Program-made: the position numbers and the translations under genes
Shown: piece after piece, positions 1-21,194 of the stretch
Layout: every line of letters begins with the position of its first letter
Position numbering within the stretch: position 1 is the stretch's first letter
Source: a virus
Virus record (IMG/VR): IMGVR_UViG_3300025120_000614
Coordinates: 1 to 22,566 of that record
Length of the DNA: 22,566 nt
Strand: one strand, 5' to 3'
The notes under the pieces: model-generated
What the model was told of the DNA's origin: nothing
Databases searched by the model: none
What the model saw: only the letters and a program-made list of their open reading frames with translations

Positions 1-1474
1 GGTCAATCACAATCAGCTTTAGGTTTTCCATCTCTAGCATCTGATCGTAGATGCGCGAGAACTCTTCGCCCATCATGTATGAGTTGTCGAACTTCTGCAT
101 GATTGGAAACACACCACCCAAGTTAGGTAACGGTAATATGCGCAGCTTATGATCGTAGTGTTCACGATATTTTTGAGGATCAAGTCGAGCGATACGCCTA
201 TGCATTTCATCTTTATCGTCTTCCGCAGTGATCAAGATAACATCACCATGCTCCGCTACCAAACCACCGAATGATCTTTCCATAGATGCGCCAGAGGCAA
301 CCTTCATTGACAAGTCGAGCGTCATCATACCTTTACCGCTATCCCCTGCCGCAGCAAATACCACTGGAACACCTAAAGGTATTGTGTCTCCGATAAGAAA
401 CTTTTGTTCTGGTGCAGACCCGATAAAGTATTTGTCGATCAACAGGCTTTCATCAATAAGCGAGATTGGTTTTTTTACTTTGCTTTCATGGGTTTGCAAG
501 AACCTATTGATGTCAAACTCCTCATCAATAGCATCCGCAGCATCCCACTTCTCAGGCTTTGTGGATGGAATGTGCAGCATCAATGTAGATTTTGCGCCCG
601 AAGCCTTTGCTTGTGCTTCGACAATACGAGCAAGTTTCTTTCCTGCATCATCATTGTCAGGCCATAAAATAACTTCTTTGTTGCGTAAGGGAGAGAAGTC
701 GAACTTTTCTGCTGTGTTTTCAGACAGCATCCCTGCCCCACCGATGGTACAGGTAGCTGCGTAACCAAGATCGGTGAGAGCGTCAGCACACTTCTCTCCC
801 TCTACCCAAATCACCTTGTTGGAGCCTAAGATGTTGGGTATATTATAGAGGGGTCTTGGTTCGGGTACACCTTGGCGTCCATTCATGAACTGGCGGAATT
901 GTTTCTTAGGCTTCCCGGCACTATCCCGAACAATTTCGCCAGATTCATTCCTGTCGAAGTATTTTCGGACCGTGACGAGAACCTGACCATGTTCATCAGT
1001 GTAATCGTATTCCTGCTCAAAGGGTGTGTTGGGACCAATTTGCCTCTTTTGTTCGGGTTGTGCAAAGCCGTTTGTGGCAGTTGTATTCCTGACCTCAAAG
1101 TTTTTAGGATCATTGAGCTTCACAATGTTTTCTGGCTGTGGCGCAAAATCCTTTGGTAGATATGTAGAGAAATGCTCTACTATCTCAGTGAGTGACCAAC
1201 CGCGTCCTTCTTTGAGAACTTTGCAGATGCCACCAACGCCATCACCTGATTCGAAATCTTTGCCGCTTAAAAACCACGGGCTGTTTATATCAATATTAAT
1301 TCTTAACGATTGACCGCGCTCACCGCGCAGTGAACCTAACATAAAATCGTGTCCGCGCCTAACGCCTTCAGGGTAAGTATCAATCAGCATGTTTAACTGA
1401 ATACTTCTTGGAACTTCCCTAGAAATGCGTTCAGCTACCTCCTTCGATGTCTTGCCAAACTGTAAAATATTCAT
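1..1474 (-). CDS. TOPRIM primase / RepA-like helicase, partial (C-terminus beyond window)
   Basis: Bifunctional replication protein expected to prime and unwind DNA at the phage fork. The minus-strand frame is open from ATG at 1474 to the window edge (491 codons). Residues 1-105 resemble the N-terminal part of phage primases but show no CHC2 zinc-finger cysteines. A TOPRIM core lies at about 219-300, with VEGEK (E225, E227) and WPDNDDAG (D273, D275, D276) as the metal-binding signatures. A RecA-type helicase domain of the RepA/AAA_25 kind follows, with a P-loop at about 375-383 (AAGDSGKGM), the ITAEDDKDEMHRRI segment at about 415-428, and Walker B (LKLIVID) exactly at the edge. AGGGA upstream of the ATG supports the start. 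It is the last visible gene of the leftward replication operon, 70 nt after the Cas4-like nuclease. The P-loop has Gly where Ser/Thr usually follows the Lys. The C-terminal half of the helicase cannot be judged. Confidence 0.88.
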   Translation of the reverse strand, partial: MNILQFGKTSKEVAERISREVPRSIQLNMLIDTYPEGVRRGHDFMLGSLRGERGQSLRINIDINSPWFLSGKDFESGDGVGGICKVLKEGRGWSLTEIVEHFSTYLPKDFAPQPENIVKLNDPKNFEVRNTTATNGFAQPEQKRQIGPNTPFEQEYDYTDEHGQVLVTVRKYFDRNESGEIVRDSAGKPKKQFRQFMNGRQGVPEPRPLYNIPNILGSNKVIWVEGEKCADALTDLGYAATCTIGGAGMLSENTAEKFDFSPLRNKEVILWPDNDDAGKKLARIVEAQAKASGAKSTLMLHIPSTKPEKWDAADAIDEEFDINRFLQTHESKVKKPISLIDESLLIDKYFIGSAPEQKFLIGDTIPLGVPVVFAAAGDSGKGMMTLDLSMKVASGASMERSFGGLVAEHGDVILITAEDDKDEMHRRIARLDPQKYREHYDHKLRILPLPNLGGVFPIMQKFDNSYMMGEEFSRIYDQMLEMENLKLIVID

Positions 1475-1544
1475 TATCTTGTCCCTACAAACGGTAAATA
1501 TACTAGATATGGGGTTGCGTCATACAAACGCTCCCCATTTTTTT
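1475..1544. other. Intergenic gap between nuclease and primase-helicase genes
   Basis: Seventy bases without a gene. It holds a GC hairpin with a nine-T tail that reads as an intrinsic terminator on the plus strand (separate entry), plus the AGGGA ribosome binding site of the primase-helicase gene. No convincing leftward promoter was found. Confidence 0.6.
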
Positions 1545-1546
1545 TT
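1509..1546 (+). terminator. Intrinsic terminator pointing rightward, against the operon
   Basis: The plus strand shows ATGGGG (1509-1514) and GCG (1517-1519), a loop, then CGC (1529-1531) and CCCCAT (1533-1538): a 9-bp stem with an asymmetric internal loop. It is followed by nine T residues (1538-1546). On the minus strand the A run precedes the stem and no T run follows, so only rightward RNA would be terminated. No rightward gene lies to its left within the window. Confidence 0.6.
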
Positions 1547-2327
1547 ATTCGTCCCAACAAGATTCACGGTATTCGCAGAACTTGCAGAGAAAAAAGTCTT
1601 TGCTTTGAGCGATACGAGGTAGAATGTCACCTGATTTTGCAGCAGTCAAGATATTCACGGCTCGGTCACTAGCTTGTTGAGCTAAAGATGCGTTGTACGG
1701 CACTAGCTCATAATAAATTTCTGATGTGTTTTTATTTACTACAGAGAACAAAGCAGGATGTTCGGTTAGCTCCATATACGTTTGATACAAAGCTATCTGA
1801 GTTGCGTAAGTTGGGTTCGCTTTGGTAACGCCCATGTTTACAAACGTTCTAAACTTTTTATCGTTTGATGATTTGTTTTCCCACAGTGACGGGTAGCCCA
1901 TTTCAACTGGACCTTCACAAATCACGCCATCTATATGACCTCTTATTTCGCCATCAGCGATAGAGAAGCCAAACTGTTCACCCATCTTATCTTCTGTGCG
2001 TAGATCAAACCCTGCATCGCGTATCCATTTAGCTGCATAGTCTTCGATGTTATGACCAAACTGAAATATGCGCAGTGTTCGTGCGCTGAACTCTTTGTCA
2101 GGATCAACAGGGTAATTTAGATAGCGATACTGTATCTTGCGTTGACATTCATCACCGATACTAGACGCGCCAATATACTTACGGCGTTCACGTTTCTTCT
2201 CGCCTGCGACGATAGCATTATCAACTGCTGCCTTAATGTGTTCTACAATCGGGTCTTCTTTAGAAGGGGATTGATGTAGAAGGCCAAGAGCCTGTTGACT
2301 TATAGTAAGTTTCTTCGAGTTTTCCAA
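1545..2327 (-). CDS. Cas4/RecB-like PD-(D/E)XK nuclease with Fe-S cysteines
   Basis: Probable DNA exonuclease of the PD-(D/E)XK superfamily acting in phage recombination or replication. Numbering from TTG at 2327 (260 aa), visible elements are H92 in GHNIEDYAA, D133 in RGHIDGVI, E150 and K152 in LWENKSS, and Q177 in YATQIALYQ, i.e. the H-D-ExK-Q order of RecB-type nucleases. One Cys (C61, GDEC) before the core and three at the C-terminus (C248, C251, C257 in CKFCEYRESC) match the 4Fe-4S cage of Cas4 and AddB nucleases. The frame also allows a TTG at 2333. The TTG at 2327 is preferred because GGAGA lies six bases before it; no ATG precedes the conserved region. It overlaps the preceding small gene by about 68 nt. 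No cas1 or cas2 is nearby, so a CRISPR role is not supported. Confidence 0.85.
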   Translation of the reverse strand: MENSKKLTISQQALGLLHQSPSKEDPIVEHIKAAVDNAIVAGEKKRERRKYIGASSIGDECQRKIQYRYLNYPVDPDKEFSARTLRIFQFGHNIEDYAAKWIRDAGFDLRTEDKMGEQFGFSIADGEIRGHIDGVICEGPVEMGYPSLWENKSSNDKKFRTFVNMGVTKANPTYATQIALYQTYMELTEHPALFSVVNKNTSEIYYELVPYNASLAQQASDRAVNILTAAKSGDILPRIAQSKDFFLCKFCEYRESCWDE

Positions 2328-2484
2328 TGTCAATCTCCGCTGCTAGACGTTGTGATTCCTGTATGCCAAATATCAGAGTGTGAACTTGCTCTTCTGATAG
2401 ATCAGAAAAACGTGTGTCCCATCCAAACTTGCCTAATATGTGAGCCAATTCTTCGATTGGCTTTGGTTCTGGTGGTATTGTCAA
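2260..2484 (-). CDS. Small conserved phage protein, unknown function (TTG start)
   Basis: I do not recognise a named family. The 74-residue product has a Pro-rich start (PPEPKP) and then looks helical (LAHILGKFGWDTRFSDLSEEQVHTL), with no Cys or membrane segment. The reality of the gene rests on its start: TTG at 2484 overlaps the upstream stop as TTGA, with GGAGG/GGAG eight bases before it, so translation is likely coupled. Its last 23 codons overlap the nuclease start in another frame. It lies inside the replication operon, so a helper role in replication or recombination is possible but not shown. Confidence 0.6.
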   Translation of the reverse strand: MTIPPEPKPIEELAHILGKFGWDTRFSDLSEEQVHTLIFGIQESQRLAAEIDIGKLEETYYKSTGSWPSTSIPF

Positions 2485-2771
2485 TGTATTGTCTCCTCCC
2501 TTATGCCGAACAATTCTATTATTTCACCGACCTCATTTGGGTCAGCGTCTTTATTTCGAAAGCCTATACTTAAAACTTCCTTACCTTTTACCATAATTAA
2601 TGCTGTTCCAAACAAAACAGGATTTTCTGCTTCGTTAAGATGAATTTGTATTGCTTCGTTTGCTACGTCCTGAACTTCTTGCAAGTCATTTGGATCATTG
2701 ACCCAACAAATCATTTCGATTTCGGACGCTTCGACATTACCATCATCGTCTTCTGCAAACATAAGATACAT
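2481..2771 (-). CDS. Conserved hypothetical protein of the replication operon
   Basis: A 96-residue acidic protein of unknown function. The sequence reads as alternating strand and helix (MYLMFAEDDDG, EMICWVNDPNDLQEVQDVANEAI, VLFGTALIMVKGKEVLSIGF), compatible with a small alpha/beta fold. The frame is open further upstream to 2816, but ATG at 2771 is preferred: GAGG sits just before it, and it falls one base after the stop of the preceding DUF6378-like gene (TGA-A-ATG). An earlier start would give an unneeded 44-nt overlap. Its stop overlaps the TTG start of the next gene. No catalytic motif is visible. Confidence 0.65.
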   Translation of the reverse strand: MYLMFAEDDDGNVEASEIEMICWVNDPNDLQEVQDVANEAIQIHLNEAENPVLFGTALIMVKGKEVLSIGFRNKDADPNEVGEIIELFGIREETIH

Positions 2772-2772
2772 T

Positions 2773-3075
2773 TCAAACCTCGGCATCTGGGGCGTCCTTA
2801 CTCGAAAATTCTCCACCCAGAGAAGAGTACGCTGCCTTGTCTACCCACGAGTCTGAGTGATCTATTTTGTTTAGGATACGCGAAGTTTTTAGCCAGTCCA
2901 TCATTAATGCAACATGCGTAGGGGTAATCTCCCCGTGTGATATAAGTGCGCTGCGCAAAATAATATTCCAACCCTCTGCAATTCTGTCGTGATTGTCGTA
3001 AGCCTCACCATAGTCTTTGGCCCTTTCGCCATTGACTAGACTTTCTGCTTGCCTCAAGAACTCTTCTCTTTTCAA
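2773..3075 (-). CDS. DUF6378-like phage protein (TTG start)
   Basis: About 100 residues resembling the DUF6378 family common in phage genomes: ERAKDYGEAYDNHDRIAEGW, then GEITPTHVALMMDWLKTSRI, then HSDSWVDKAAY. The molecular role is unknown to me. The all-helical pattern with conserved E, D and H residues recalls MazG-like nucleotide hydrolases, which is only a loose inference. The frame is open upstream to 3132, but TTG at 3075 is the better start: AGGAG ends eight bases before it, it overlaps the helicase stop as TTGA, and family similarity begins right after it. Confidence 0.72.
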   Translation of the reverse strand: MKREEFLRQAESLVNGERAKDYGEAYDNHDRIAEGWNIILRSALISHGEITPTHVALMMDWLKTSRILNKIDHSDSWVDKAAYSSLGGEFSSKDAPDAEV

Positions 3076-4748
3076 TGTAATTTCTCCTGCGCTGCATGAA
3101 ACGCTTTGCCTAGAGCGTCTTTGTTCCAACAAAAACTCAAAGCACAGCCTGCTTTGTATTTAGTCCACGAGAAGTCCATTGAACTGATATGAATGTCGTG
3201 ATCCATTAACAGGTTCTTTTGTTTCTCTGTGGCCCTGTTATTAAGCCAACGCTTCGTTTTATTTGCTGCATCGCTATCTTCAATCTCGCGTAAGAAATCA
3301 TCGGCTGCTGACATAGCATGCACTTTTTCACCAATCGCTACTGTGCGAACACGGCCTTTTTGTGATTTTACCATAGCGACCCACATATCATCTTTGATGT
3401 GACCTACAAAGGCGAATCCCTGAAAGCCCATAGCCATCAGTGCATTGCCCTCTTGAAATGGGCTAATCCACATGAAAGGTGATAACTGCATCAGATCGTA
3501 TTCAGTCATGATAAACTGTTCGAGCGCAGCTTTCTCTTCTGCTACAAACTCATGACCGCAGATCGGACACACTGTTAAACGCGCATGAACCTCTGCGTTG
3601 CATTCAGGACAAGTCTTTGTGGGTGCTTCGCCCTCAACCGTTTTGTCTCTTCCATCTAGGTTAGCTGCATCATCAATACTGCCATGCGTAATGACAGACG
3701 TACCAAAGTCCATAACGATGCAATCAGTCTTGATTGTGTCTGGATATAACTCAGGATCAACGATGCGTAGTCCACGACCAATCATCTGCACCATTGTACC
3801 CTTCTGAGAGCATGGGCGCGTTAGAATGATACAAGACACAGGTGGAGCATCAAACCCCTCTGTAAGCACCGCTACGTTGACCACAACCTGTAAATCACCA
3901 TGCTCAAGGTCATGGAGCATCTCTGCTCTTTTATCTTTTGGTGTTTCACCTGTTACAAAGTTTGCATCAACACCAGATTCAAGAAAGGCTGCACAAAGAT
4001 GTTCAGCGTGTTTGACTGTTGAACAGAACACAACAGTCTTGCGATCCCCTGCTTTTTCTTCCCATTCACGAACAATTCTATCGTTAATGACTTGGTGATC
4101 CATAATCGCGGCGACCTCTTCCATGTCATATTCTTTGCCGCGTTTTGTGACGTTATCTAATTGATCATTGATACCCAGATCGACCACAAAGGTTTTGGGC
4201 CGAACCAGAAATCCCTCTTGGATTAACGCACCGATTTCGATTTGATGTGCGCAGTTGTTGAACACAGAGCGCAATCCTTTGCCATCACCACGATTAGGTG
4301 TAGCTGTAAATCCTACAATCTCTGCACTGTCGTTGTCTTCAAGCACGGCATCAATCACACGGCGATACGTTCTTGCCGCTGCGTGATGGCCTTCATCAAT
4401 CACCACCATGTCGAACTTGGGGCGCTTGGCTAGGTTGCGTTCACGAGAAATAGTTTGCACCATTGAGAATACGGCATCGCCATCCCAATGCTTGACTGTA
4501 CCGTTCACAATACTTGTTGTGATGTACGGGTTCACCTTTTTGAACTTGGATTGGTTTTGCGCAACAAGTTCATCGCGGTGCTGCACGATAAGAATTTTTT
4601 TACCTTCTTTGTGCCGCTTGCCTACAAGCGCAGAAAGCATGATCGTTTTGCCTGCACCCGTTGGTGCAACGACTAGAGTATTGCCGTGTTTGTCGAGAGC
4701 TTTTAGAGCATCGCTTACGGCTACCTCTTGGTAGGGACGTAGTAACAT
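3072..4748 (-). CDS. Superfamily 2 DEAD/DEAH-type helicase with zinc ribbon
   Basis: ATP-dependent nucleic-acid helicase or translocase of the phage replication machinery (558 aa). Visible SF2 motifs, in order: Q-like motif LRPYQ at residue 3; Walker A APTGAGKT at 28-35; DEGHH from 118; TATP at 148-151; TEGFDAP at 296-302; and motif VI QMIGRGLR at 321-328. A four-Cys zinc ribbon follows (C380, C383, C394, C397) and then about 160 residues of unassigned C-terminal sequence, plausibly for DNA or partner binding. The architecture is that of phage UvsW/RAD25-like helicases. The ATG at 4748 has AGGTG upstream. Its stop is shared as TTGA with the next gene. Upstream lies the 92-bp structured gap, which would form part of its leader or separate it from the SSB-like gene. 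Confidence 0.9.
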   Translation of the reverse strand: MLLRPYQEVAVSDALKALDKHGNTLVVAPTGAGKTIMLSALVGKRHKEGKKILIVQHRDELVAQNQSKFKKVNPYITTSIVNGTVKHWDGDAVFSMVQTISRERNLAKRPKFDMVVIDEGHHAAARTYRRVIDAVLEDNDSAEIVGFTATPNRGDGKGLRSVFNNCAHQIEIGALIQEGFLVRPKTFVVDLGINDQLDNVTKRGKEYDMEEVAAIMDHQVINDRIVREWEEKAGDRKTVVFCSTVKHAEHLCAAFLESGVDANFVTGETPKDKRAEMLHDLEHGDLQVVVNVAVLTEGFDAPPVSCIILTRPCSQKGTMVQMIGRGLRIVDPELYPDTIKTDCIVMDFGTSVITHGSIDDAANLDGRDKTVEGEAPTKTCPECNAEVHARLTVCPICGHEFVAEEKAALEQFIMTEYDLMQLSPFMWISPFQEGNALMAMGFQGFAFVGHIKDDMWVAMVKSQKGRVRTVAIGEKVHAMSAADDFLREIEDSDAANKTKRWLNNRATEKQKNLLMDHDIHISSMDFSWTKYKAGCALSFCWNKDALGKAFHAAQEKLH

Positions 4749-4840
4749 AAAACACCTGTTCGCTAGAATTGGTGGGGGGATTGCGGCCCTCTGCCCCCCG
4801 GTCAGAGGTCTAGCAGGCGCGGATTGGCCCTGCCGCTAGA
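4749..4840. other. GC-rich, repeat-built, highly structured intergenic element
   Basis: A gap of 92 bases, far more GC-rich than its surroundings. On the plus strand it contains TCTAGC-A-GGC (4809-4818) opposite GCC-GCTAGA (4832-4840), a 9-bp stem with one bulge. It also contains CCTCTG (4788-4793) opposite CAGAGG (4803-4808), whose loop holds CCCCCC (4794-4799) complementary to GGGGGG (4774-4779). Stem plus loop pairing could form an H-type pseudoknot. Parts are repeated: GGATTG followed by GCCCT and GCC occurs at 4778-4795 and again at 4821-4834, and CCTG followed by CGCTAGA occurs at 4756-4767 and 4828-4840. No T tract follows on the minus strand, so it is not a simple terminator. Replication origin, RNA regulatory element or protein-binding site are all possible. 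Confidence 0.65.
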
Positions 4841-5464
4841 TTATCTTTGCGCCCAAGACGGAACACCACCAGACGATTGAGGCTGCGTAGGTGCAGCTTG
4901 CTGAGTGGTTTGCGCTGCTACAGGAGTCTGTTGCATTGGCGCTTGTCCGCTTGGAACGAATTCCCGCGAATTAGGTGTTAAAGCTACGGTCAAGCAATTG
5001 CTATCACTGTAGCCGTTAGTCCCTTTCTTAATACCAACTTTAGCACAAATTTCCATAGCATTTAAGTCAAAAACTCCAGAAATATTTCTTGCCTGTTGCG
5101 CTTCTGCCGAAACGTCCGCAGGATCAATGTTACGCGCACTCTCAACAAGTGATTTTAATGTGCGTAAACCAATCTCTTTGGCTTGTGGAATACCGCTTTG
5201 ACCCATCTTGTCACCATCGACAAAGACGCGATCCCAAAACTTACGGCGATCAAATTCACCACCAATAATGGTAAACTCAAGTTCCATCCACTTAGCCGCA
5301 GAAGTCGCTGACTTTTTAAACCAAGGTCCAGAACCAAATTCTGGAACTTCGGTGTCACCTTGCTTTACAAGGACAACTGCACGGCAAACTGTGCCTTTAG
5401 GAATTAAAGAAAACTCACGATCCTGTGGGTTATCATCGGCGGGTACGTTATTTAAATTAAGCAT
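4841..5464 (-). CDS. DUF669-like single-stranded DNA-binding protein
   Basis: Likely phage SSB-like protein protecting single strands during replication and recombination. The 207-residue product begins LNLNNVPADDNPQ and contains the block PKGTVCRAVVLVKQGDTEVP, followed by KWMELEFTIIGGEFDRRKFWDR, typical of DUF669 proteins. The body looks like a beta-rich OB-type fold. The last 40 residues are Gln/Pro/Ala-rich and flexible, ending PSWAQR, so the acidic tip of bacterial SSB is absent. The frame is open to 5509, but ATG at 5464 is preferred: GAGGA lies upstream, conserved sequence starts there, and it overlaps the stop of the upstream ATPase gene by 8 nt (ATGCTTAA). Sitting next to a Sak4-type ATPase supports a recombination role. 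Confidence 0.75.
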   Translation of the reverse strand: MLNLNNVPADDNPQDREFSLIPKGTVCRAVVLVKQGDTEVPEFGSGPWFKKSATSAAKWMELEFTIIGGEFDRRKFWDRVFVDGDKMGQSGIPQAKEIGLRTLKSLVESARNIDPADVSAEAQQARNISGVFDLNAMEICAKVGIKKGTNGYSDSNCLTVALTPNSREFVPSGQAPMQQTPVAAQTTQQAAPTQPQSSGGVPSWAQR

Positions 5465-6329
5465 TTTGTGCTTCCTCTTCGCTAGAAGTTTGTGTTGCAG
5501 GATCAACAAATGTTAAATCCCTTGGTTGATCAGAAGAGCTACCAGACATCTTTTCCATCAGCTTGCCTAGATGCGGCTCTTCCAAAGTTTCGAGGCGACC
5601 AGAGCGATCTTTTGCAGGGTAGCCCCATTCATTCAATGGCTGACAGATAAACGCACGATACTGACCGTGATCACCTGACAGGATTGCCATTGTAATTACT
5701 TCGTCAACAATTCCGGGCAATTCACGCCCTGTCTTGCTGCCTTCAATTTGCAGCGCATATTGCTTGCGTCCATAATCATCTGTGATTTCATCAAGAATGC
5801 CAACAAAAATTACATTCTTTGTACGAATGTGCTGAAGGTGTGTTAGCCATGACATCATTTCACGCCCATGCATTCCATAGGCTGCGCGTGTGTCTAGCTT
5901 TCCAGAACGCTCAGAGCGTGTTTCTGGTTGCTGTAAGCACCACTGAAAGCACAAACGCCCTGCGACAGTAATAGAGTCTACAAACAGACTATCAAACTTG
6001 TCCCAAATATCTGCGTTGTCTCCATACATTTTAGCAACGTAATCGTAATGCGCTTGGCTGTATGGCTGATCTTCTGACAGTGATGGGTTAGCACCACCTA
6101 AGAAGCAAGCTAAGTCACGGCATTCAGTCCATGTACGCGGACGAATCACATCAATTGGGTAGCCTTCGATAGCGGCATCCCCTGCTTCTAAGTCCATAAA
6201 CAATGTAGTTTTTGGATCAAGAGTCCTAGCAAGTGTGGTTTTACCCACACCGCTTGGTCCACACACCACGATTTTGTGGCCCTTCTTTTCAGCTAAACGC
6301 TGATCGGCTGTGATAATTTGTAAAGCCAT
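5457..6329 (-). CDS. RecA-like AAA ATPase of the Sak4 / AAA_24 type
   Basis: Probable single-strand annealing or recombination ATPase (290 aa). Walker A is GPSGVGKT at 24-31. An acidic strand, TTLFMDLEAGD, follows at about 41-51. Walker B is FDSLFVDSI at about 112-120. A RecA-type strand, NVIFVGILDEI, lies near 170. The C-terminal region with PGIVDEVITMAI fits phage AAA_24 proteins, which are often annotated 'ATP-binding protein' and include Sak4. ATG at 6329 overlaps the upstream stop as TAATG, and GGAGG lies before it. The direct partner gene downstream is the SSB-like protein, the usual arrangement for Sak4 systems. Confidence 0.82.
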   Translation of the reverse strand: MALQIITADQRLAEKKGHKIVVCGPSGVGKTTLARTLDPKTTLFMDLEAGDAAIEGYPIDVIRPRTWTECRDLACFLGGANPSLSEDQPYSQAHYDYVAKMYGDNADIWDKFDSLFVDSITVAGRLCFQWCLQQPETRSERSGKLDTRAAYGMHGREMMSWLTHLQHIRTKNVIFVGILDEITDDYGRKQYALQIEGSKTGRELPGIVDEVITMAILSGDHGQYRAFICQPLNEWGYPAKDRSGRLETLEEPHLGKLMEKMSGSSSDQPRDLTFVDPATQTSSEEEAQNA

Positions 6330-6727
6330 TATTCTACCTCCTCAATAGTAAAGCCACCAACTTCTACGGTACGGCATGGTTCGAGAGTTGCCTTGATTGC
6401 AGGTGGGGCTGCTGTGTATTTACGCTCTTCAACTGCAAGCGTAATTTTTCCATAGTGACGCGCATCTTCTTCAGGCATGGACTGTAATACAGTGCCAAGT
6501 TCTTCCTGATCCCACACAACCTTTTTGCGGACCGTAGCTTTCATTTTACGATTGCCTGCAATAATGTATGTAGTTCCAAAGTCTTTACCATCTGCGCGTA
6601 ACGCATCACTTACTTGAGTAAAGAAGGTATCATAGATTTGTTCATCAACGTTTTTGAGTTCATCACGCATTTCACTAATGACATACTTGAGTTCCTCTCG
6701 ACGCTCAAAAAGTTCACGACTGTTCAT
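6329..6727 (-). CDS. Conserved hypothetical, first gene of the replication operon
   Basis: A 132-residue protein of unknown function. Residues 1-45 are a charged heptad-like helix (RREELKYVISEMRDELKNVDEQI), likely a coiled coil. The rest contains a basic strand (RKMKATVRKKVVWDQEEL) and a C-terminal beta-like tail. One Cys, no membrane segment and no enzyme motif are seen. It is preceded by a good ribosome site (GGAG eight bases before the ATG) and by the candidate early promoter and operator at 6762-6790, so it would be the first protein of the regulated leftward operon. Its stop overlaps the ATPase start (TAATG). Confidence 0.7.
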   Translation of the reverse strand: MNSRELFERREELKYVISEMRDELKNVDEQIYDTFFTQVSDALRADGKDFGTTYIIAGNRKMKATVRKKVVWDQEELGTVLQSMPEEDARHYGKITLAVEERKYTAAPPAIKATLEPCRTVEVGGFTIEEVE

Positions 6728-6761
6728 GTCGATTCTCCGCTGTTAAGTTACTAGAACCCTA

Positions 6762-6790
6762 TCTATCCCACATGGCTTGGGATATGTCAA
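6762..6790 (-). promoter_or_regulatory. Candidate leftward early promoter
   Basis: On the minus strand a perfect -35 TTGACA (6790-6785) is followed by a 17-bp spacer and a weak -10 GATAGA (6767-6762). TG stands one base upstream of the -10, giving an extended -10. The leader to the ATG at 6727 would be about 27 nt. The -35 overlaps the stop codon of the DUF1064-type gene. The spacer is covered by a perfect palindrome. Confidence 0.55.
6764..6784. promoter_or_regulatory. Operator-like palindrome O1
   Basis: Perfect inverted repeat TATCCCA-N7-TGGGATA lying between the -35 and -10 of the leftward promoter. Its right half GCTTGGGAT and the CCCAC junction recur in the second site at 7120-7140 with the same 7-bp spacing. 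This suggests one DNA-binding protein acting at both promoters. Confidence 0.6.
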
Positions 6791-7161
6791 CGACTTTTTT
6801 TAGATAAAAATATTTCTATGCCAAGGCATGCCTTCATTAATTTCTTTTTTAGTTTAAATTCAGGGGTTTCTACACCCTTGGCATCCTCGACCACTTCATA
6901 CCAGTCACCGTCTTTGTTTTGCTTCTGGTATCTGAAGTCAGCAATGTAAGCACAAATCTTTTCGTCATTGACCATAAGATTGTATCGCACTTGTAGCTCC
7001 AAGTCCTTGACCGTCCCTGCGCGTTCTAGTGATTTAATATATAAGTAACGCTGTGATTCCCACTTAGAATCGAACTTAATTCCTTGCACAGTTACTTTCT
7101 TATTACCGTACTTGGGTCTTGACCCACGCCGCTTGGGATTATATACAGTAGTAAACGTCAT
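6787..7161 (-). CDS. DUF1064-type nuclease (PD-(D/E)XK, resolvase-like)
   Basis: Probable small structure-specific endonuclease (124 aa) of the DUF1064 phage family. KYGNKKVTVQGIKFDSKWESQRY is followed by AGTVKDLELQVRY, AYIADFRY, VVEDAKG and KLKKKLMKA. Candidate PD-(D/E)XK residues are E35, D75, E92 or D93, and K95. A role in branch resolution before packaging is inferred from the fold. ATG at 7161 lies only 18 bp from the divergent regulator's ATG. Its own Shine-Dalgarno is poor, with GGAGG 13 bases away. Because it lies upstream of the candidate leftward promoter, it must be read from late-gene read-through or from a promoter I could not identify inside the regulator gene. Confidence 0.75.
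   Translation of the reverse strand: MTFTTVYNPKRRGSRPKYGNKKVTVQGIKFDSKWESQRYLYIKSLERAGTVKDLELQVRYNLMVNDEKICAYIADFRYQKQNKDGDWYEVVEDAKGVETPEFKLKKKLMKACLGIEIFLSKKSR
7113..7126. promoter_or_regulatory. Second inverted repeat over the regulator's -35
   Basis: Perfect inverted repeat TGGGTC-TT-GACCCA. It overlaps both the -35 TTGACC and the left arm of operator O2, so it offers an alternative or additional binding register built from the same GGG/CCC half-sites. Confidence 0.4.
7119..7147 (+). promoter_or_regulatory. Promoter of the ribbon-helix-helix regulator gene
   Basis: The plus strand carries TTGACC (7119-7124), a 17-bp spacer and TATACA (7142-7147), a near-consensus sigma-70 type promoter. 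The predicted start is near 7154, with a leader of about 26 nt to the ATG at 7180. The whole promoter lies inside the 5' part of the oppositely read nuclease gene. Confidence 0.65.
7120..7140. promoter_or_regulatory. Operator-like palindrome O2 (imperfect copy of O1)
   Basis: Contains GACCCA-N7-TGGGAT in the regulator's promoter. Aligned with O1 (6764-6784) it matches at 15 of 21 positions, including CCCAC and GCTTGGGAT, with identical half-site spacing. Its position over the spacer predicts repression by steric block, most simply autorepression. Confidence 0.55.
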
Positions 7162-7179: not shown

Positions 7180-7398
7180 ATGCCAAAACCTGAAAAATAC
7201 AAATCAGTCGGTATATCAATAGACGCGTATCAAAAACTGATCTTCATTGCCGATCAAGAAGATCGTGCTTTGGGTAGACAGTTATCACGCATGATTGAAG
7301 AATCATACGAAGATGTTCAGGAACGTGTCAATAGTAAGCGCGGCTATCAACCCGCTGCTGTAGGCATAGGCGGTATAACTACAGTCATCGAAGACTAG
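7180..7398 (+). CDS. Ribbon-helix-helix (Arc/CopG-type) transcriptional regulator
   Basis: The only rightward gene in the window (72 aa). Residues 7-13 (YKSVGIS) form the expected DNA-contacting beta strand. Helix A is about 14-28 (IDAYQKLIFIADQED), the turn is RALG, and helix B is about 33-46 (RQLSRMIEESYEDV), giving the RHH dimer fold. The C-terminal 20 residues are Gly-rich and probably flexible. The start has AAGGA seven bases before the ATG. It has its own promoter (7119-7147) and its own terminator (7423-7458), so it is a monocistronic unit. It stands at the junction of the virion and replication modules, and matching operators at both nearby promoters suggest it represses itself and the replication operon. 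An antirepressor or antitoxin-like role is a weaker alternative; no toxin gene is adjacent. Confidence 0.82.
   Translation: MPKPEKYKSVGISIDAYQKLIFIADQEDRALGRQLSRMIEESYEDVQERVNSKRGYQPAAVGIGGITTVIED
7395..7398. other. Shared CTAG giving both stop codons of convergent genes
   Basis: CTAG is its own reverse complement. Bases 7396-7398 read TAG for the rightward regulator, and 7397-7395 read TAG for the leftward virion gene. The two genes therefore end on the same four bases with no intergenic space. Confidence 0.9.
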
Positions 7399-10259
7399 AG
7401 AAGCCCTGCGTTACCTAAACCACCCAGTAGTGTTGCTGCCACTGCTGGGTTTTCTTTTGCGCGTTGTCGAATATTAGAAAAATCAGGAACGTCAGATATT
7501 TCTACCGGGGCAACATCAGGAACTGGCATAGTTGTTCGGCTTACTGGCGCTGGTACCGAAGATACTCTACGATTTTCTAAATCACGAGCTATATTGGAAG
7601 CGCCTTCTTTCATGGAACCTACAGTTCCTACGGCTACTCTCATACCTTGTTGTTTTGCAAAAGATTTACTGGTGTCGTTTAAAACTCTTAAAAACACTTG
7701 CATTTTACCAGCTTTAGTTTTTTCTTTTGCCGCTTCTTTTCCATACCGTGCTGCGAAAGATGTGTAGAACGGACCAGTAGACAAGAACTGACCGATTAGA
7801 CCAAGACGAGCAATTGTTCCTAAATTTTCTAATGGATTAGCAGCAATATTAGCCGCAACAAGATCACCGCCTTCAGCAGATGCGCCAAGAACTTTCATGT
7901 TTTGACCAAATAAAGCGATAGAATCAGCTTCTGCTTTAGGAAATAAAGCTCCTAGTTTACCAGATTTTTCAGCCCGTAAAAGGCGTTCTGATAATTGTTT
8001 AAAGGCTTTTTTGTCTGTCATAAAGCTATGCTCAAAATCACCTATAAGGTTTTGCATATAGTATGATTGTAACTCAGCTAACTCTTCAGGTTTATCTTTA
8101 AAAAACTTTGAAAGTTTTGTAATGTCATTACCTTTGACAGATGGGCTTGCCAACAAGTCTGCTGCTTCATCTGGCATCAATGATCCTGCACGAATTTTTC
8201 TAGCCATTGCCGCAGAATCAAACTGTGCTTTTTCTTTCATAATGTCTTTTACATTACGCAATAAATTCACACCAGCTTCGTCACCACCCTCTTCTACGAA
8301 ATCATCAATAACACTTTGATTTACTCTTGTTAAAGATAAAGTATCCATTTGGTCTGCCAGCCTACGAACTTCTGAAATTCGTGACCCGAACAATTCATCG
8401 GCTGTACCGCCTAAATCATCTAATTTTTGTTTAAATTTGCTTCCGCTAAATTTTCTTGTTGCATCTAAAGTTGAACCTGATTCACGCATTGTTTTACGCA
8501 ACCATTCAGAAGCCGCACGTTCTCTTAGCGTATTAAAAGCGTCTTTTCCTAAATTTTCCTCTAAAACTTTTTTAGCATCTTGAAGCAATTTTGGATTATC
8601 GTTTTGTATAAAACGACCATATGCACCTTTTGGGTTTAATTCTACGCCACCTTTAACAGAGTTTTGTAAACTTTTTATACTAGCCGCCGATGAAACTTTT
8701 TCAAAGCTGTCCATGCCTTGTTTAAAGAAACTACGAAGTTTTGGTATTTCATTAGAAACATCTTTAAAAAGTTTCTTTTGTTCGGCTGTTAAATCACCAG
8801 CCGCTTTTCTCCTCATAGCATTGTTGACAGAAGTAGGAGATATAAAATCATCTAGCTTATTGAGAAACTTGTCTTTCATTAACTTAACACTGTCAGAACC
8901 GTAGTTACCCATCCAAGTGTCATTAAGAGTTTTTCTAGCCTTGTATACTTGAGTAAAAGAAGCATCATCAGGTAATTGCATAAGCTCTCTTACAGCATCA
9001 CGAGATTTTCCAAGATTTCCTGATCCAGCCGCTACCAATCTATCAAGCTCTAATTGAGCGTCAGATTTTAATGCGCGAGTATTAAATAGCGCGGTATCAC
9101 CAACTGCACTGTTTGTTAAATTTTCAAGGTTAGCAAATTTTTCTTTTACTTTGTCATCAAAGGCTTTGTATGCGCCAACAAATGCCCCTTGTATGTCAGC
9201 GTTTAGTGCGTCATCTTTTTTTGCAGCTTTTCCTATTTGAACAGCAATGTCATCCATGTGTTTAATTAAATTATTAGATGCAGTCTTTTCAGCTTGAAGC
9301 AATGCATTATCACCCGCTGCTACAGCGTTTGTTAGAATAGCAGCAGTAGCATCTATATCTACACCACCATCAGCGCCATAAGCGCGTAACTTTGCCAAAT
9401 CTGACATAATCTTTTCATGATTTTGACGTAATCTAGCAGATGTACCTAGAGCCTTCTCACTCATTGCCTGTTGACGGGCTACAAGAGAATTAGCGCCCAT
9501 AGCAGATAATGAAGGCTTATAGCCAGATTTAATAGCAGTAGCGACCTCTTCCTGCGTTTGTGGAGCTAACTTGCTACCTGCACGACCACGACCTACTGCG
9601 AATCCAAAAGATTTGCCAATTGCACCAAATACACCTTCACCAGCAGCGGCTATAAGAGCTTCAGTACCAGCCGCCTTACCAACATCAAGAAGGCTTTCTT
9701 CCTGTGTCCCTCTTAGCGTTTCTACGCCTTCTTCGACTAACTTACCACCTCCAGCACCTAAACCTGCACCAATAGCAGCACCTAGTATTGGAATAGGAAT
9801 TGCAGCCTGTCCTGCTATAGCACCGCCAATACCACCTACAATTTCTTCACCAGCCGCGCCTACAAAGTCTTGTAAATCAGACAAAGTAAACCCGCTTTCA
9901 TCAATCATAATCGGCTTGTCAGTCTCTATGCCAAGCAAAAGTGCGCCTTTTGGAGTGATCGCTAAGTCTCCACGATCATCTCTCATATAATCGCCTTCTC
10001 TAAAACCATAGCGACCTAAGACATTTTCTTCTTCTTTTTCTGTCTCAGCGCCTGCTAACTGGCGTCTTAGGCGATTATTTTTTATTCCAGTTTCTCTGTC
10101 TATTGGTGTTTCATCTCTAATGGCTAATGGTGAAACTGAACGTTCCATTTTTTTAATTAAACGTTCGGCTTGCAACATTTCAGGATACGTTGGTTTTTCT
10201 CCTTTAATTTCAAAAGGAATAAACTCGCCGGGTCTAATTTCAAGTTGAATTTCAGGCAT
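7395..10259 (-). CDS. Large internal virion / ejection-type protein
   Basis: A 954-residue protein, probably an inner-virion protein released with the DNA. After a polar N-terminus (to about 125) comes a Gly/Ala-rich zipper-like stretch at about 132-225, with repeated GxxxG spacing (GGIGGAIAG, GAAIGAGLGAGGG). Such stretches are typical of membrane-inserting ejection or tape-measure proteins. Most of the remainder is long charged helix with coiled-coil character, and a Pro-rich tail (APVSRTTMPVPDVAPVE) lies near the C-terminus. No lytic transglycosylase or protease motif was recognised. It is the last gene of the structural block, as for gp16-like ejection proteins of short-tailed phages. ATG at 10259 has AGGA upstream. 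It ends in the CTAG that also gives the stop of the convergent regulator gene. The assignment is from composition and position only. Confidence 0.6.
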   Translation of the reverse strand: MPEIQLEIRPGEFIPFEIKGEKPTYPEMLQAERLIKKMERSVSPLAIRDETPIDRETGIKNNRLRRQLAGAETEKEEENVLGRYGFREGDYMRDDRGDLAITPKGALLLGIETDKPIMIDESGFTLSDLQDFVGAAGEEIVGGIGGAIAGQAAIPIPILGAAIGAGLGAGGGKLVEEGVETLRGTQEESLLDVGKAAGTEALIAAAGEGVFGAIGKSFGFAVGRGRAGSKLAPQTQEEVATAIKSGYKPSLSAMGANSLVARQQAMSEKALGTSARLRQNHEKIMSDLAKLRAYGADGGVDIDATAAILTNAVAAGDNALLQAEKTASNNLIKHMDDIAVQIGKAAKKDDALNADIQGAFVGAYKAFDDKVKEKFANLENLTNSAVGDTALFNTRALKSDAQLELDRLVAAGSGNLGKSRDAVRELMQLPDDASFTQVYKARKTLNDTWMGNYGSDSVKLMKDKFLNKLDDFISPTSVNNAMRRKAAGDLTAEQKKLFKDVSNEIPKLRSFFKQGMDSFEKVSSAASIKSLQNSVKGGVELNPKGAYGRFIQNDNPKLLQDAKKVLEENLGKDAFNTLRERAASEWLRKTMRESGSTLDATRKFSGSKFKQKLDDLGGTADELFGSRISEVRRLADQMDTLSLTRVNQSVIDDFVEEGGDEAGVNLLRNVKDIMKEKAQFDSAAMARKIRAGSLMPDEAADLLASPSVKGNDITKLSKFFKDKPEELAELQSYYMQNLIGDFEHSFMTDKKAFKQLSERLLRAEKSGKLGALFPKAEADSIALFGQNMKVLGASAEGGDLVAANIAANPLENLGTIARLGLIGQFLSTGPFYTSFAARYGKEAAKEKTKAGKMQVFLRVLNDTSKSFAKQQGMRVAVGTVGSMKEGASNIARDLENRRVSSVPAPVSRTTMPVPDVAPVEISDVPDFSNIRQRAKENPAVAATLLGGLGNAGLL
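7423..7458 (+). terminator. Intrinsic terminator of the regulator gene, inside the opposing gene
   Basis: CCCAGTAGTG (7423-7432) pairs with CACTGCTGGG (7440-7449) in a 10-bp stem with one G-U pair and a 7-nt loop, followed by TTTTCTTTT (7450-7458). It begins 24 bases after the regulator's stop codon. The bases also encode PAVAATLLGG of the opposing virion protein. There is no T run in the leftward direction, so it is one-directional. Confidence 0.8.
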
Positions 10260-10261
10260 TG

Positions 10262-12241
10262 CTATTTCCTAACTAACTTACCATCCACAAATACAAGTGA
10301 ACCTAATCCTTTTAAGTCTTCAAAAGTACCATACTTTTCAACAATGTTATCGTAAGTTCCTTCTTGGTGATTAGATGGATCAAGCAAATCTTCAAGAGCA
10401 TTGTCAAAATCATTTTGTTTTGCACCAAAAATTTGATCAAGGCCATCAAGAGCATTCAATGTTGCATCAAGGTTTGTAAAGAAACCAATGTTACCCATCA
10501 AATCATCTGTCCACATTTCAACGTCACGATTTGAAATGCCGTTACCAGTCTCTTGTGTAAGGAAACGCTTGTATTGGTTAAGTAGCTTTTTAGTTTCGTA
10601 GTTATAGTCCTCGACATCGGTTGGTTCACCCGTTAAATACTGTGATGGAGCAATAGCTTTCATCAAACCGTGTAGCTTTTGATATGCTACCTGCACAGTA
10701 CCACCGCCCTCTGCAATTTCAGTTGCAGTTGTACGCAATGCTGAAATTGTTTCACGCGCGTCAACAACGCCATCACGACCTAAAACATGCTTACGAATTG
10801 CAGCTTCAGGTTTTAAATAAAAGCCGCCATTCGGGTTTTTGGAATCATAGACATATGGTATTTTCCATGAATCTGACGAACCCTGTCCGTCCACAAACTT
10901 ACGATCTTTGGTTTTGCTGTAATCACCACCAGTTGTTTGAGCCTTCAAAATTTCTAACTGTGCATCTATATTTGCTTTGGAGTCTTGTTCTTTCATTTTT
11001 AAGTCAGAGGCATACCATTTAAGGTAAATTTCTTTTTGAAAATCTTTATTGGCTGATGCTGATGCTAATTCAGCATCAACATCTGCTCGACGTTGTTGCA
11101 ATGCATATTTACCCGCTGCAAGTTGAGCAGCTTTTGAATCCGCAGTTGCTTTATCTAAATACGGCATAGCAGCCTCACCTGCTTCGCCAAGTGCTTCAAG
11201 CGCACCACTAAACCCTTTACCACCTGCTTTATTCTTTAATAAAGCAAGACCCCAAGCCTGTAACGCACGACTTTTATCAATTTTGCCACTTGCATCTATT
11301 CCTGTAGCTTCTTCAAATTCTTTTCTATAACGAGCTATAGCGTCTTTTTTTGACTCACTTTTACGAGGCGGAGAGTCTGATACATCTTTCATAGCTGCAA
11401 AAAATGCATTATAAGCAGCGTCAGGTCCAAGAGAAATACTTTTTCCTCCTGTATCTTTAGCATTTTTTTCTTTTTGAGCTTTTAAATATGCTGCCCGTTC
11501 ACCGGGTTTTTCTACAATATCTCCACGACCACCTGTCAATATAGCCTCTAAAGTTTCCGCAGGACTTGGCGCAGCATCTTCTAACTTTGGTTCTATTTTT
11601 TTATCTTTAGGTTTAGCATCTAGCCTAGTAAGAAGCTCCCCAATTTCGTCCAAAGCAGATGGTTGAAATGCAGCTTCTTCTCCAAGCAATTCTCGTGGAG
11701 CAAGAAGTGCTGCTTCATTTGCAAGAATTTCACGCTCAGTTATGTTTCCAACGTTTTCAAATCGACCCGGAACTGCCATATCTTGTATAGAACGATAAGC
11801 CTTTTCCATTTCTGAAATATCTTCTTTGCCAAAACCAAACTGTTGACCGCCTTTAGACATAAAAGGGCCACCACCACCGAAAAACCCACCTTCGTCTGGA
11901 ACCAAGCCTTCGATTGGTATAGATAAACCTTCATTTTCCATAGTTCTTTCAGATAGATCGTTTAAATATGCCCCAAGAGCGTCTTGGTTTTTAAAATCAA
12001 GATTATTTTTTAACTCTTCAAATGCATAATAACGACTACCCGGCCCTCTTGGAATCTGAACAAATGTTCCCGCTGCTTCGGGTCCTTCTGCTGCAAAAAG
12101 ACTTCTAAGATTTGCAGCTTGTTGTGGTCCTGTAAGTGCTTTTTGTTTATAGCCTAAACCTTGGTTTAACACATTTTTGCGAGTAGGATTGTTTTCGCTA
12201 TATCTTTGCGCTACCTGATTATATCTTTCTTCGGGAGTCAT
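10262..12241 (-). CDS. Probable internal virion protein, unknown family
   Basis: A 659-residue protein, not recognised. It begins TPEERYNQVAQRYSENNPTRKNVLNQG, has a Gly-rich patch (GGFFGGGGPFMSKGGQQFGFGKED) at about 160-185, and contains long charged helices (KEKNAKDTGGK, KKDAIARYRKEFEEATG). No membrane segment or enzyme motif is evident. The frame extends two codons upstream to a GTG at 12247. ATG at 12241 is preferred because AGAGG lies five bases before it, making the GTG part of the ribosome site region. It sits between two other Gly/Ala-rich virion-type genes (6-12 nt and 2 nt spacing), so a shared role in the inner virion or DNA ejection is inferred. Confidence 0.55.
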   Translation of the reverse strand: MTPEERYNQVAQRYSENNPTRKNVLNQGLGYKQKALTGPQQAANLRSLFAAEGPEAAGTFVQIPRGPGSRYYAFEELKNNLDFKNQDALGAYLNDLSERTMENEGLSIPIEGLVPDEGGFFGGGGPFMSKGGQQFGFGKEDISEMEKAYRSIQDMAVPGRFENVGNITEREILANEAALLAPRELLGEEAAFQPSALDEIGELLTRLDAKPKDKKIEPKLEDAAPSPAETLEAILTGGRGDIVEKPGERAAYLKAQKEKNAKDTGGKSISLGPDAAYNAFFAAMKDVSDSPPRKSESKKDAIARYRKEFEEATGIDASGKIDKSRALQAWGLALLKNKAGGKGFSGALEALGEAGEAAMPYLDKATADSKAAQLAAGKYALQQRRADVDAELASASANKDFQKEIYLKWYASDLKMKEQDSKANIDAQLEILKAQTTGGDYSKTKDRKFVDGQGSSDSWKIPYVYDSKNPNGGFYLKPEAAIRKHVLGRDGVVDARETISALRTTATEIAEGGGTVQVAYQKLHGLMKAIAPSQYLTGEPTDVEDYNYETKKLLNQYKRFLTQETGNGISNRDVEMWTDDLMGNIGFFTNLDATLNALDGLDQIFGAKQNDFDNALEDLLDPSNHQEGTYDNIVEKYGTFEDLKGLGSLVFVDGKLVRK

Positions 12242-12253
12242 AGGCACCTCTTG

Positions 12254-13549
12254 TTAACCGCTAAAACCTTGCATTGTTGAATACGCTCCAACACCCTGCA
12301 AGAATGGGTCTGCTGATGTTTGTGGACCTTGTGTATATTGACTATACATAGACGCCGATGGCGCTCCAGTTAGGAAGTTCTGTGCGTAGCTAAACGGAGC
12401 AAGTGCTTGCTGTGTTGTGTTTAATGTATTTTGACGCGTAAAGTCCTGTCCTTGTTGAGCGTACTGACGTTCTTTGCCACCAAGCTCATACATAAAGCCA
12501 AGGTCAGCAGGTTGCATGCCTGCATACACACGACCAATATCAGCAGATGTACCCGCTAATTTGCCATAGGCTTGACCTACATCAGCTTGCGCACCGCCTA
12601 ACTGACCGTATGTTTGTCCTAATCCACCTGTAAGGCGTCCTGCCTCTAGGTCACGTTTCTTTTCGTTTTCAGCGGCCCCTAAACCACGTTTGGCTGCATC
12701 CTCAAAGGCACTTGATTCTAAAGTTGCTCCAGATGCACCCAACTTACCTGTAAGACCAGAGGCTTGTAATGCACGTTTGCGCTCTGCTTCGTCTGTAGCC
12801 ATCGCATTTGCCATCGACTTATCATAGCCCTTTGACAAAAGGTTGGCGATAGTACCTTGCTTGGTTTCTTCAATAGCGCGTTGCGTTTCTGCGGCCTGAA
12901 TGCCTGAACGAGAGCCACCAAAAGCACCTGCGCCAACTGCCCTAGCTTGATCAGCTTGACGTTGCTGCGCACCCTCACGGGTAATTTTCTTCATAGCAGA
13001 GTCAATGACCTGCTGCTTGTAAGGGTCCATAAAGTCTTCAACTGAGCTTGGATCGAAGCTACCAAGACCCTGTTCAGCTAACTCAAATGCACGGCCTGTT
13101 CTGCGGTCAAATGCTTCTTTAGCGCCAAACTGACCACCTGCATCAACAGAACCGCGTCCAGCTTCTAAAGCTGATTTGGCATCTGGGAAGTAATCAGTAA
13201 GAGCTTTTGCCATAGTAGCTTGGCCCGTGCCTAAACCACTTGCTGCGTCAGGTAAGTAACGAGGAGTTCCTGATGCGTCTTGAAAATAAGGTAGGTAACG
13301 ATCCATAAACTGTTGACGTTGCGTTGCATCGCCAAGTGTACTTGTTACGGCTGACTGAAGAGGATCAGTGCCTGCTTGAACATAATCTGGAATTTTAAAT
13401 AAATCAGGGTATTTAGTTGCGTCTAAAATGCCACCCGAAAGAGTGCCACTCCCGTCATCTTGCCCAAATATCTTACCAAGTAAGGCTAAATCTAAGTCTT
13501 GAATATATTGTGGACGAGAAGTTATTACGTTTTGTGTGGTTTCAGTCAT
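12254..13549 (-). CDS. Ala/Gly-rich virion-associated protein, probable internal protein
   Basis: A 431-residue protein. The central block GAQQRQADQARAVGAGAFGGSRSGIQAAETQRAIEE and the following Ala/Gly/Gln-rich helical stretches (GLTGKLGASGATLESSAFEDAAKRGLGAAEN, GLGQTYGQLGGAQADVGQAYGKLAGTSADIG) are of a kind I associate with inner-virion proteins of marine podovirus-like phages. The repeated G-x-L-x(2-3)-A pattern suggests amphipathic helices that may insert or assemble. The C-terminus is Gln/Tyr-rich and low in charge. ATG at 13549 overlaps the stop of the upstream gene (TAATG). Function is inferred from composition and position. Confidence 0.6.
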   Translation of the reverse strand: MTETTQNVITSRPQYIQDLDLALLGKIFGQDDGSGTLSGGILDATKYPDLFKIPDYVQAGTDPLQSAVTSTLGDATQRQQFMDRYLPYFQDASGTPRYLPDAASGLGTGQATMAKALTDYFPDAKSALEAGRGSVDAGGQFGAKEAFDRRTGRAFELAEQGLGSFDPSSVEDFMDPYKQQVIDSAMKKITREGAQQRQADQARAVGAGAFGGSRSGIQAAETQRAIEETKQGTIANLLSKGYDKSMANAMATDEAERKRALQASGLTGKLGASGATLESSAFEDAAKRGLGAAENEKKRDLEAGRLTGGLGQTYGQLGGAQADVGQAYGKLAGTSADIGRVYAGMQPADLGFMYELGGKERQYAQQGQDFTRQNTLNTTQQALAPFSYAQNFLTGAPSASMYSQYTQGPQTSADPFLQGVGAYSTMQGFSG

Positions 13550-14559
13550 TACGCTATATCCTCTAATTTATCCATCATACCATACATTTTCTGAATACCT
13601 TGATTTAAATTACCATTGCCAGCGCCTTTTACCGCGTCACGAGTCATAACAAACTCGCCTGCGGTTAGCATAGCAGGAACATCGTCTTTTGTACCAGAAC
13701 CTTCGCTTGGCATAATACCACCATCACGGCGCGGGAAATATGTTGCGCCGCCTTCATTTAATCTCATAACATCACCTAGCTTAACCCTTGTAGGGTCTGC
13801 CATTGCTTCAGCGTATGTTTGATTTGAGCGCCTTGCAGCGCGATCTAAATCAGTCTCTTCGTAATCTTTACCAAATACAGAATCTAGCAATTGAGAACCA
13901 AGACCCATAGCAATAGCCTCACCTGCTTTGTTGTTTAACAATCTACCAATGCCCTCATCTGGATTAAGATTAAACAAATCACCTATACCCAACAAGCCTT
14001 CTGCACGTTCGTATTTAGGCTTTTTTAGTTTATCTTCAATAATCTTTTCAGTAAGCGCGTCAGCTTTGCCACCACCAAATGAGCTTAAATTTGGCTTTCC
14101 TACATTTGGAACATCTGTATCCATGCCAAACAAGGCACCAAGACCAGAATCACCACCTGACATATAGCCCAAACCACCGCCTGCAATACCTCCAAGCAGT
14201 GCATCACGCAAAGATGGCTTGCCTCCAGTAAGTGCTTGTAACGCAACGTTACTTATAGCGCCCTGAACGATAGGGTTGCTAAAGAAGTTACCACCGCCAC
14301 CACCAATAAGTTGAGAGCCAAATTTAATTATTTTATCAATAAAGAACTCAGGCTCACCCGTCACAGGGTTAATGCTATTTTGACCAGAACCAACAGTATA
14401 ACGCATTGGATCGGCACCTGCATCGGCAAAAGCCATACCCAAACCACGCGCAACTTCAGGGCTACGTTGTAGAACTTCAGGGGGTACAACCATTTCGCCC
14501 GGAGCAACGTGCGCCATCATTGTATCACCGTTTCTACCGTATTGTGCCATGCCTTGCAT
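13549..14559 (-). CDS. Gly-rich virion protein with paired PGEMVV / AGEFVM motifs
   Basis: A 336-residue protein likely acting in the tail or inner virion. The N-terminus carries HVAPGEMVVPPEVL (about 17-30) and the C-terminus carries the related DDVPAMLTAGEFVMTRDAV (about 292-310). Motifs of this kind recur in phage tape-measure and internal proteins. Between them lie Gly-rich segments (GSQLIGGGGGNFFSN, LLGGIAGGGLGYMSGGDSG) with zipper-like spacing. ATG at 14559 has GAGG eight bases upstream. It heads the group of virion genes that are joined by overlaps or short gaps down to 7395. Whether it is tape measure or ejection protein cannot be decided here; it is short for a tape measure. Confidence 0.6.
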   Translation of the reverse strand: MQGMAQYGRNGDTMMAHVAPGEMVVPPEVLQRSPEVARGLGMAFADAGADPMRYTVGSGQNSINPVTGEPEFFIDKIIKFGSQLIGGGGGNFFSNPIVQGAISNVALQALTGGKPSLRDALLGGIAGGGLGYMSGGDSGLGALFGMDTDVPNVGKPNLSSFGGGKADALTEKIIEDKLKKPKYERAEGLLGIGDLFNLNPDEGIGRLLNNKAGEAIAMGLGSQLLDSVFGKDYEETDLDRAARRSNQTYAEAMADPTRVKLGDVMRLNEGGATYFPRRDGGIMPSEGSGTKDDVPAMLTAGEFVMTRDAVKGAGNGNLNQGIQKMYGMMDKLEDIA

Positions 14560-14611
14560 ATTAAAACCTCGTGACCGCTATATATAAGTTACCAAATCTT
14601 TACATAAATTA

Positions 14612-17498: not shown

Positions 17499-17580
17499 TC
17501 AACAATCTCCTAATACCCGAATTATACATATTTCAAACAATTGTTCGAGTTATATTTTTAAAAACAATAAACCGAACATT
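17499..17580. other. AT-rich gap between endolysin and tail protein genes
   Basis: Eighty-two bases, very AT-rich. It holds inverted arms TGTTCG (17542-17547) and CGAACA (17573-17578) with a long loop, a self-complementary AACAATTGTT, a TTTTTAAAAA palindrome and a perfect leftward TATAAT (17526-17521). No T-tailed GC stem is present, so no terminator is called. Confidence 0.5.
17521..17526 (-). promoter_or_regulatory. Candidate leftward -10 for the virion gene block
   Basis: A perfect TATAAT on the minus strand, 23 bases before the tail gene start and just ahead of its AGGAG site. The bases 16-18 further upstream do not match a -35 (ACTCGA/CTCGAA). It is therefore a weak call: it may need an activator or be chance in AT-rich DNA. 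Confidence 0.3.
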
Positions 17581-20923: not shown

Positions 20924-20944
20924 GTTAGTCTCCTTTATGTTAAG

Positions 20945-21166: not shown

Positions 21167-21194
21167 TTCTTTCTCCTTTTCTGACTGGTTACTA

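Follow-up and report, generated by a model that had tools for sequence, protein, structure and literature searches.

The locus described here raises the question of whether a small phage gene controls both its own promoter and that of the adjacent replication/recombination genes. The window, by which is meant the whole stretch of DNA analysed, is a 22,566-base fragment of a tailed phage taken from a virus record. Its structural genes (7395-22565) and its replication/recombination genes (2-7161) form two leftward blocks, and at the junction between them lies the sole main gene of the plus strand, a 72-aa ORF (7180-7398) that encodes a putative ribbon-helix-helix (RHH) autoregulator. The sequence-only reading had proposed that one 21-bp operator, present as O1 and O2, is common to the promoter of this gene and to a leftward early promoter, and that proposal is now strongly supported by conservation of the sites in relatives. 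The phages form a widespread, uncultivated group, probably of marine alphaproteobacteria.

Setting of the junction

The genes to the left of the regulator, all on the minus strand, are a DUF1064 gene (6787-7161; Pfam PF06356, E 5e-19; phrog_190, E 3e-34, a PHROG of Holliday junction resolvases), gp132 (6329-6727; phrog_2480, function unknown), which is the first gene downstream of O1, and a Sak4-like ssDNA-annealing ATPase (5457-6329; phrog_124, E 4e-47; PF13479), the second gene of the O1 operon. Beyond the latter is an ORF that, from its sequence, reads as a DEAD-type helicase. A near relative of 55 kb, G006, encodes a primase/helicase, and also terminase, portal and capsid proteins. A hairpin resembling an intrinsic terminator was detected by a terminator scan right behind the regulator stop codon (7422-7450, plus strand), and a similar hairpin was present in at least a subset of relatives.

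The Sak4-like protein (5457-6329) was 49-54% identical to those in the recombination modules of AcaML1, an Acidithiobacillus phage, and Wolbachia phage WO, and about 30% identical to those of other phages, which suggests that recombination modules may have been exchanged between phages. In AcaML1 the flanking genes are instead those of an excisionase, of a site-specific recombinase and of another regulator, and no divergent 72-aa regulator is annotated there. Membership in a known phage family was rejected, the regulator and gp132 both being unmatched in the phage collection (about 50,000 deposited phage records contained no relative of the regulator), and the junction was absent from the annotations of AcaML1, related through Sak4, and of Roseobacter phage CRP-901 and DSL-LC04, related through tail proteins.

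Other features of the window and of G006 were seen in passing. A repetitive, tail-fibre-like protein (21195-22565) is cut by the contig end, and its C-terminal part (SDYRLKENVSDLTGA) resembles an intramolecular chaperone domain. Within the regulator gene, a sigma-70-like promoter on the minus strand (7302-7331; TTGACA-N18-TATGAT, 11/12) faces DUF1064. G006 (locus L254) encodes an amidoligase-like protein (11870-12967) and a gamma-glutamyl cyclotransferase (8666-9067), which lies within an accessory region on the minus strand.

The two operators

O1 (TATCCCACATGGCTTGGGATA, 6764-6784) was confirmed as a perfect 7-N7-7 palindrome, located in the 59 bp that separate DUF1064 from gp132 and placed behind a perfect TTGACA (6785-6790, minus strand), the TGA of which is the DUF1064 stop codon. 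The claim that it covers the spacer of a leftward promoter holds for this -35 element, but the candidate -10, GATAGA (6762-6767, minus strand, spacer 17), which is read from sequence alone, is weak, with a 3/6 match to TATAAT, and was not picked up by a promoter scan of the window. The TTGAC is retained in relatives that have an inserted cargo gene instead of DUF1064 upstream, and is therefore a promoter element and more than a stop codon. On the minus strand, the half-sites of O1 are CCCA (6781-6778) and TGGG (6770-6767), with a third, AGGG (6757-6760, a 3/4 match), 10 bp downstream of the second.

O2 (TGACCCACGCCGCTTGGGATT, 7120-7140) has half-sites CCCA (7123-7126) and TGGG (7134-7137), and a third, TGGG (7113-7116), upstream and 10 bp from the CCCA. 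A recount bore out the reported match to O1 (15/21 identical, mismatches at positions 2, 3, 9, 10, 11 and 21, with the same 7-bp spacing), and O2 does, as claimed, fill the spacer of the regulator's own promoter (7119-7147, plus strand), which consists of TTGACC (7119-7124), N17 and TATACA (7142-7147). The TTGACC and the TATA segment are conserved among the regulator promoters of relatives.

Judged from the window alone, O1 and O2 are within chance: two matches with three or fewer mismatches arose in 17/100 shuffles, and perfect inverted repeats of the 7-N7-7 type number three in the window, or 30 when any gap of 0-12 between the 7-nt arms is allowed. These statistics being insufficient, the two sites are taken as real because they are conserved in relatives. 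The conservation set comprised 80 gp132 relatives from viral contigs, and O1 and O2 were found at matching positions in nearly all of those belonging to one large clade, clade A; O2 was present at all of the regulator promoters of this clade. In the 23 distinct canonical O1 promoters that remained after duplicate removal, the bases of CCCA and TGGG were invariant (2.0 bits per column), and the spacer columns held mostly 0.4-0.9 bits. The motif scan that the sequence-only reading had named as a check gave the predicted confinement: across 14 related contigs (about 484 kb, as summed from listed record lengths), CCCA-N7-TGGG was counted at these promoters about 21 times and outside them 4 times, fewer than the roughly 7 that our own chance estimate predicts, reversed-pattern controls also having been run. 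Within the window, O1 and O2 are its only occurrences.

In O1 promoters, with the CCCA taken as zero, a TGGG stands at +11 and in many cases another TGGG-like site follows at about +21. A subclade has TGGT or TGCT as its decayed central half-site, and there the third position reads TGGG in full without exception. The layout of O2 is TGGG-N6-CCCA-N7-TGGG. From these patterns, the operator appears to be a row of three half-sites, spaced by about 10.5 bp, rather than one 21-bp palindrome, so that the sites of the earlier claim are real but each would be a three-half-site array. Three contacts at the spacing of one helical turn would suit stacked dimers.

The two-promoter scheme, although right about both sites, had missed that O2 is embedded in the DUF1064 ORF (codons N8-S14, minus strand), the first 17 codons of which contain the entire regulator promoter. 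Among 41 distinct DUF1064 sequences, codons V6, Y7, N8, P9, R12, G13 and S14 were each represented by one codon, even though five of these seven have four- or six-fold degeneracy, while the codons over the O2 spacer varied (AAA/AAG for K10; CGG/CGA/AGG/AGA/CTG for R11). The frozen codons map to the -10, the two half-sites and the -35 of the regulator promoter, and those of the third half-site, P16 (CCC) and K17 (AAG), were kept in 40/41 sequences each. Mean codon entropy was 0.0 in the frozen core compared with 0.90 elsewhere, and 0/200,000 degeneracy-matched draws were as low. Since the frozen codons track the half-sites and vary over the spacer, protein constraint is inadequate as an explanation. 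The 5' end of DUF1064 looks to be a clear case of dual use, with an operator, visible as frozen synonymous codons, written into the protein code.

Cargo promoters and the distant clade

A third operator, also missed by the two-promoter scheme, is found on the promoters of cargo genes. In 28 loci (including L013, L096, L120, L148, L151, L162, L163, L173, L184, L196, L215 and L248), out of 107 distinct ones, DUF1064 and gp132 are separated by an insert of about 370-990 bp, and each of the 28 carries a rightward gene, opposite to gp132, behind a TTGAC and a half-site array; the window itself is without such an insert. The products, of 67-258 aa, were sorted by eye into about ten apparently different families, and two related ones match phrog_3754 (function unknown). 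Because the operator is shared, the cargo genes are candidate early host-takeover or counter-defence genes, and their functions are perhaps host takeover or anti-defence. It is possible, and is put forward here only tentatively, that the whole forms a plug-in regulon, in which one repressor would control its own, the early and the cargo promoters, and accessory genes would be expressed in an early pulse and then silenced.

In most lineages of a distant clade, whose regulators share 31-40% identity with the window protein, the promoters of the regulator, gp132 and the cargo gene all bear a changed site, of the AGTWTGGGAT type. Examples are AGTTTGGGATTATATG at O2, AGTATGGGAT (reverse strand) at the gp132 promoter and AGTTTGGGAT at a cargo promoter, and from the sequences at the three promoters it follows that the site has been altered alike at all of them. 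The L174-L183 lineage has kept TTTTGGGAT at its regulator promoter, and an O1 of the AGTWTGGGAT form was not recognisable at its gp132 promoter. The gp132 promoters of L228 and L229 have other sequence in place of O1 (the palindrome GTAAATATATTTAC in L228, and CCCCATGTATAGGG), which may be a re-specified operator.

The regulator and its proposed circuit

The sites and promoter elements are real: their conservation at the DNA level is separate from that of the encoded protein, they lie on promoters and, genome-wide, hardly occur elsewhere, and they accompany the regulator gene in contigs that are long enough. The regulator itself is present in almost all relatives with a contig that extends over this position. 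The 72-aa protein of the window gave no matches in Pfam, PHROGs or NCBIfam, and RHH profiles matched one relative weakly (RHH_5, E 0.03; RHH_7, E 0.13). Against the PDB, the best match of the family profile was also a weak one (E 0.08-0.10), to HP0222, an Arc/MetJ-type RHH protein (PMC6269979). The expected RHH layout would place a strand at about K8-I14 and helices at 14-26 and 30-55, and the pattern KYKSVG(V/I)SI, helix, EDRAIGRQL helix is compatible with this fold. An AlphaFold monomer (pLDDT 67) had both helices, 14-26 and 30-55, and a helix at 4-9 where the strand is expected; Foldseek with this monomer found no match, hhalign against CopG and Arc gave nothing, and a single-sequence structure model was poor. 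The RHH identity given in the sequence-only reading is thus plausible but weakly backed by profile and model, and the protein likely has this fold. Half-site arrays with a period of 10-11 bp at promoters are the type of site expected for RHH proteins, binding in this case being predicted. The regulator also has a conserved C-terminal tail, GIGG(I/L)xxVIED (7357-7395), after a variable, probably disordered linker, and this tail is possibly a partner-binding or degradation signal.

The best explanation, which we consider probable, is that the 72-aa protein is a dimeric autorepressor, most likely of RHH type, that occludes its own promoter and that of the recombination/replication genes, giving early shut-off. 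Its dimers would bind CCCA/TGGG half-sites at 0, +10/11 and +21 bp, placed in each of the two promoters after the -35 and before the start site, with O2 targeting the regulator's own promoter and O1 that of gp132, Sak4 and the replication/recombination genes downstream. At infection, both promoters would be free and would fire; as the protein accumulates, RNA polymerase would be occluded at both, so that the regulator limits itself and the early genes are turned off. Operators on its own and on a neighbouring early promoter, which are what an autoregulated circuit calls for, were found in O1 and O2, conserved and almost confined to these places. The sites lie between -35 and -10 and therefore fit occlusion, as described for viral RHH repressors (PMC5569661). 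Weighing against this explanation, the predicted strand residues KSVG/KSIG are near-identical between the clades, though their sites differ, and the L174-L183 lineage does not show an O1 of the expected form; the weak -10 of the O1 promoter and the uncertain RHH fold count on the same side. We infer that the 72-aa protein would be the binder of the half-sites, that it would repress rather than activate, and that the purpose of the circuit would be early shut-off rather than lysogeny.

Arc and Mnt of phage P22 are likewise small phage RHH repressors (for the family context, see PMC3325190), and their operators of about 21 bp, which lie over core promoters and take paired dimers, resemble the putative circuit. 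The 72-aa regulator has no sequence similarity to Arc detectable by hhalign, and unlike Arc and Mnt, it is associated with CCCA/TGGG half-sites and a third half-site, and with operators on its own and a replication/recombination promoter, in phages where no integrase was found. SvtR of the archaeal virus SIRV1 is a small RHH autorepressor with few sites in its own genome that acts by promoter occlusion (PMC5569661), but it belongs to an archaeal virus, has another recognition sequence, and its main target is a late structural gene. F55 of SSV1 is an RHH protein with tandem sites on early promoters and on its own promoter (PMC5569661); it differs in maintaining the lysogeny of an integrating archaeal virus and in using tandem ATAGATAG sites.

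An alternative that we hold to be unlikely, but that survives better than the others, is that another factor, a host regulator or another phage protein, binds the array, the 72-aa gene being merely a target. In its favour, binding by the 72-aa protein is a prediction and its DNA-binding fold is weakly supported, but the sites are confined to promoters around the 72-aa gene, the gene accompanies them in nearly every relative whose contig reaches that far, and the site type shifts together with the regulator clade. In addition, CCCA-N7-TGGG is unlike the boxes of alphaproteobacterial LexA (GTTC-N7-GTTC) and CtrA (TTAA-N7-TTAA).

Next, and improbable, is a role as a lysogeny or immunity repressor, in which the same protein and sites would serve to sustain a prophage or carrier state and to exclude superinfecting phages. 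Mnt of P22 is a viral RHH repressor with a role of this type. F55 of SSV1 is another (PMC5569661). However, the marks of a temperate integrating phage, an integrase and prophages in host genomes, did not emerge: tyrosine recombinases (PF00589) numbered 0 in 9 records and serine recombinases (PF00239) 0 in the virus records, which ran up to 60 kb, and a gp132 relative was present in only 1 of 84,980 bacterial and archaeal species genomes, on a contig of a Rhodobacteraceae MAG of which the examined 16 kb were phage-like in ORF layout. Because no integrase was found and the species genomes gave one match, the timing half of the earlier proposal of lysogeny- or timing-type control, that is early shut-off, is preferred over the lysogeny half.

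Less probable again is activation, with the 72-aa protein recruiting polymerase to early promoters in which a good -35 is paired with a poor -10. This is conceivable because the window's leftward -10 is a weak one that the promoter scan missed, and RHH proteins that also activate are known (AmrZ, AvtR), but the sites fill the -35/-10 spacer and overlap the -10, so that bound dimers would block polymerase, and the regulator's own promoter has good elements. Finally, that O1 and O2 arose by chance or act as RNA elements (a hairpin or attenuator), with O2 reflecting conserved amino acids, has the window statistics and the conserved NPKRRGS encoded by O2 in its favour, but is very improbable: a chance origin is ruled out by the relatives, a hairpin or terminator by the half-site swap (the subclade weakens the 7-nt-loop hairpin yet keeps the 10-bp spacing) and by the position of O2 upstream of the regulator's likely transcription start, and coding coincidence by the DUF1064 codon test, in which synonymous freezing tracks half-sites, not residues, while the cargo promoters have the same array in opposite orientation.

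Occlusion by a 72-aa autorepressor, the reading preferred here, is a circuit of a type already known, since Arc/Mnt, SvtR and F55 are established cases of viral RHH proteins that repress themselves through operators at their own promoters and at early ones, and the 72-aa regulator would be a new member. The literature gave precedents only; this regulator family, its operator embedded in coding sequence and the cargo slot equipped with operators turned up in none of the searches. If true, the plug-in regulon would operate in a lineage in which no integrase was found, with a regulator site inside a protein-coding gene, and the slot between DUF1064 and gp132 points to candidate genes for host takeover or counter-defence. 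The analysis yields a testable regulatory circuit for a widespread, uncultivated group of phages.
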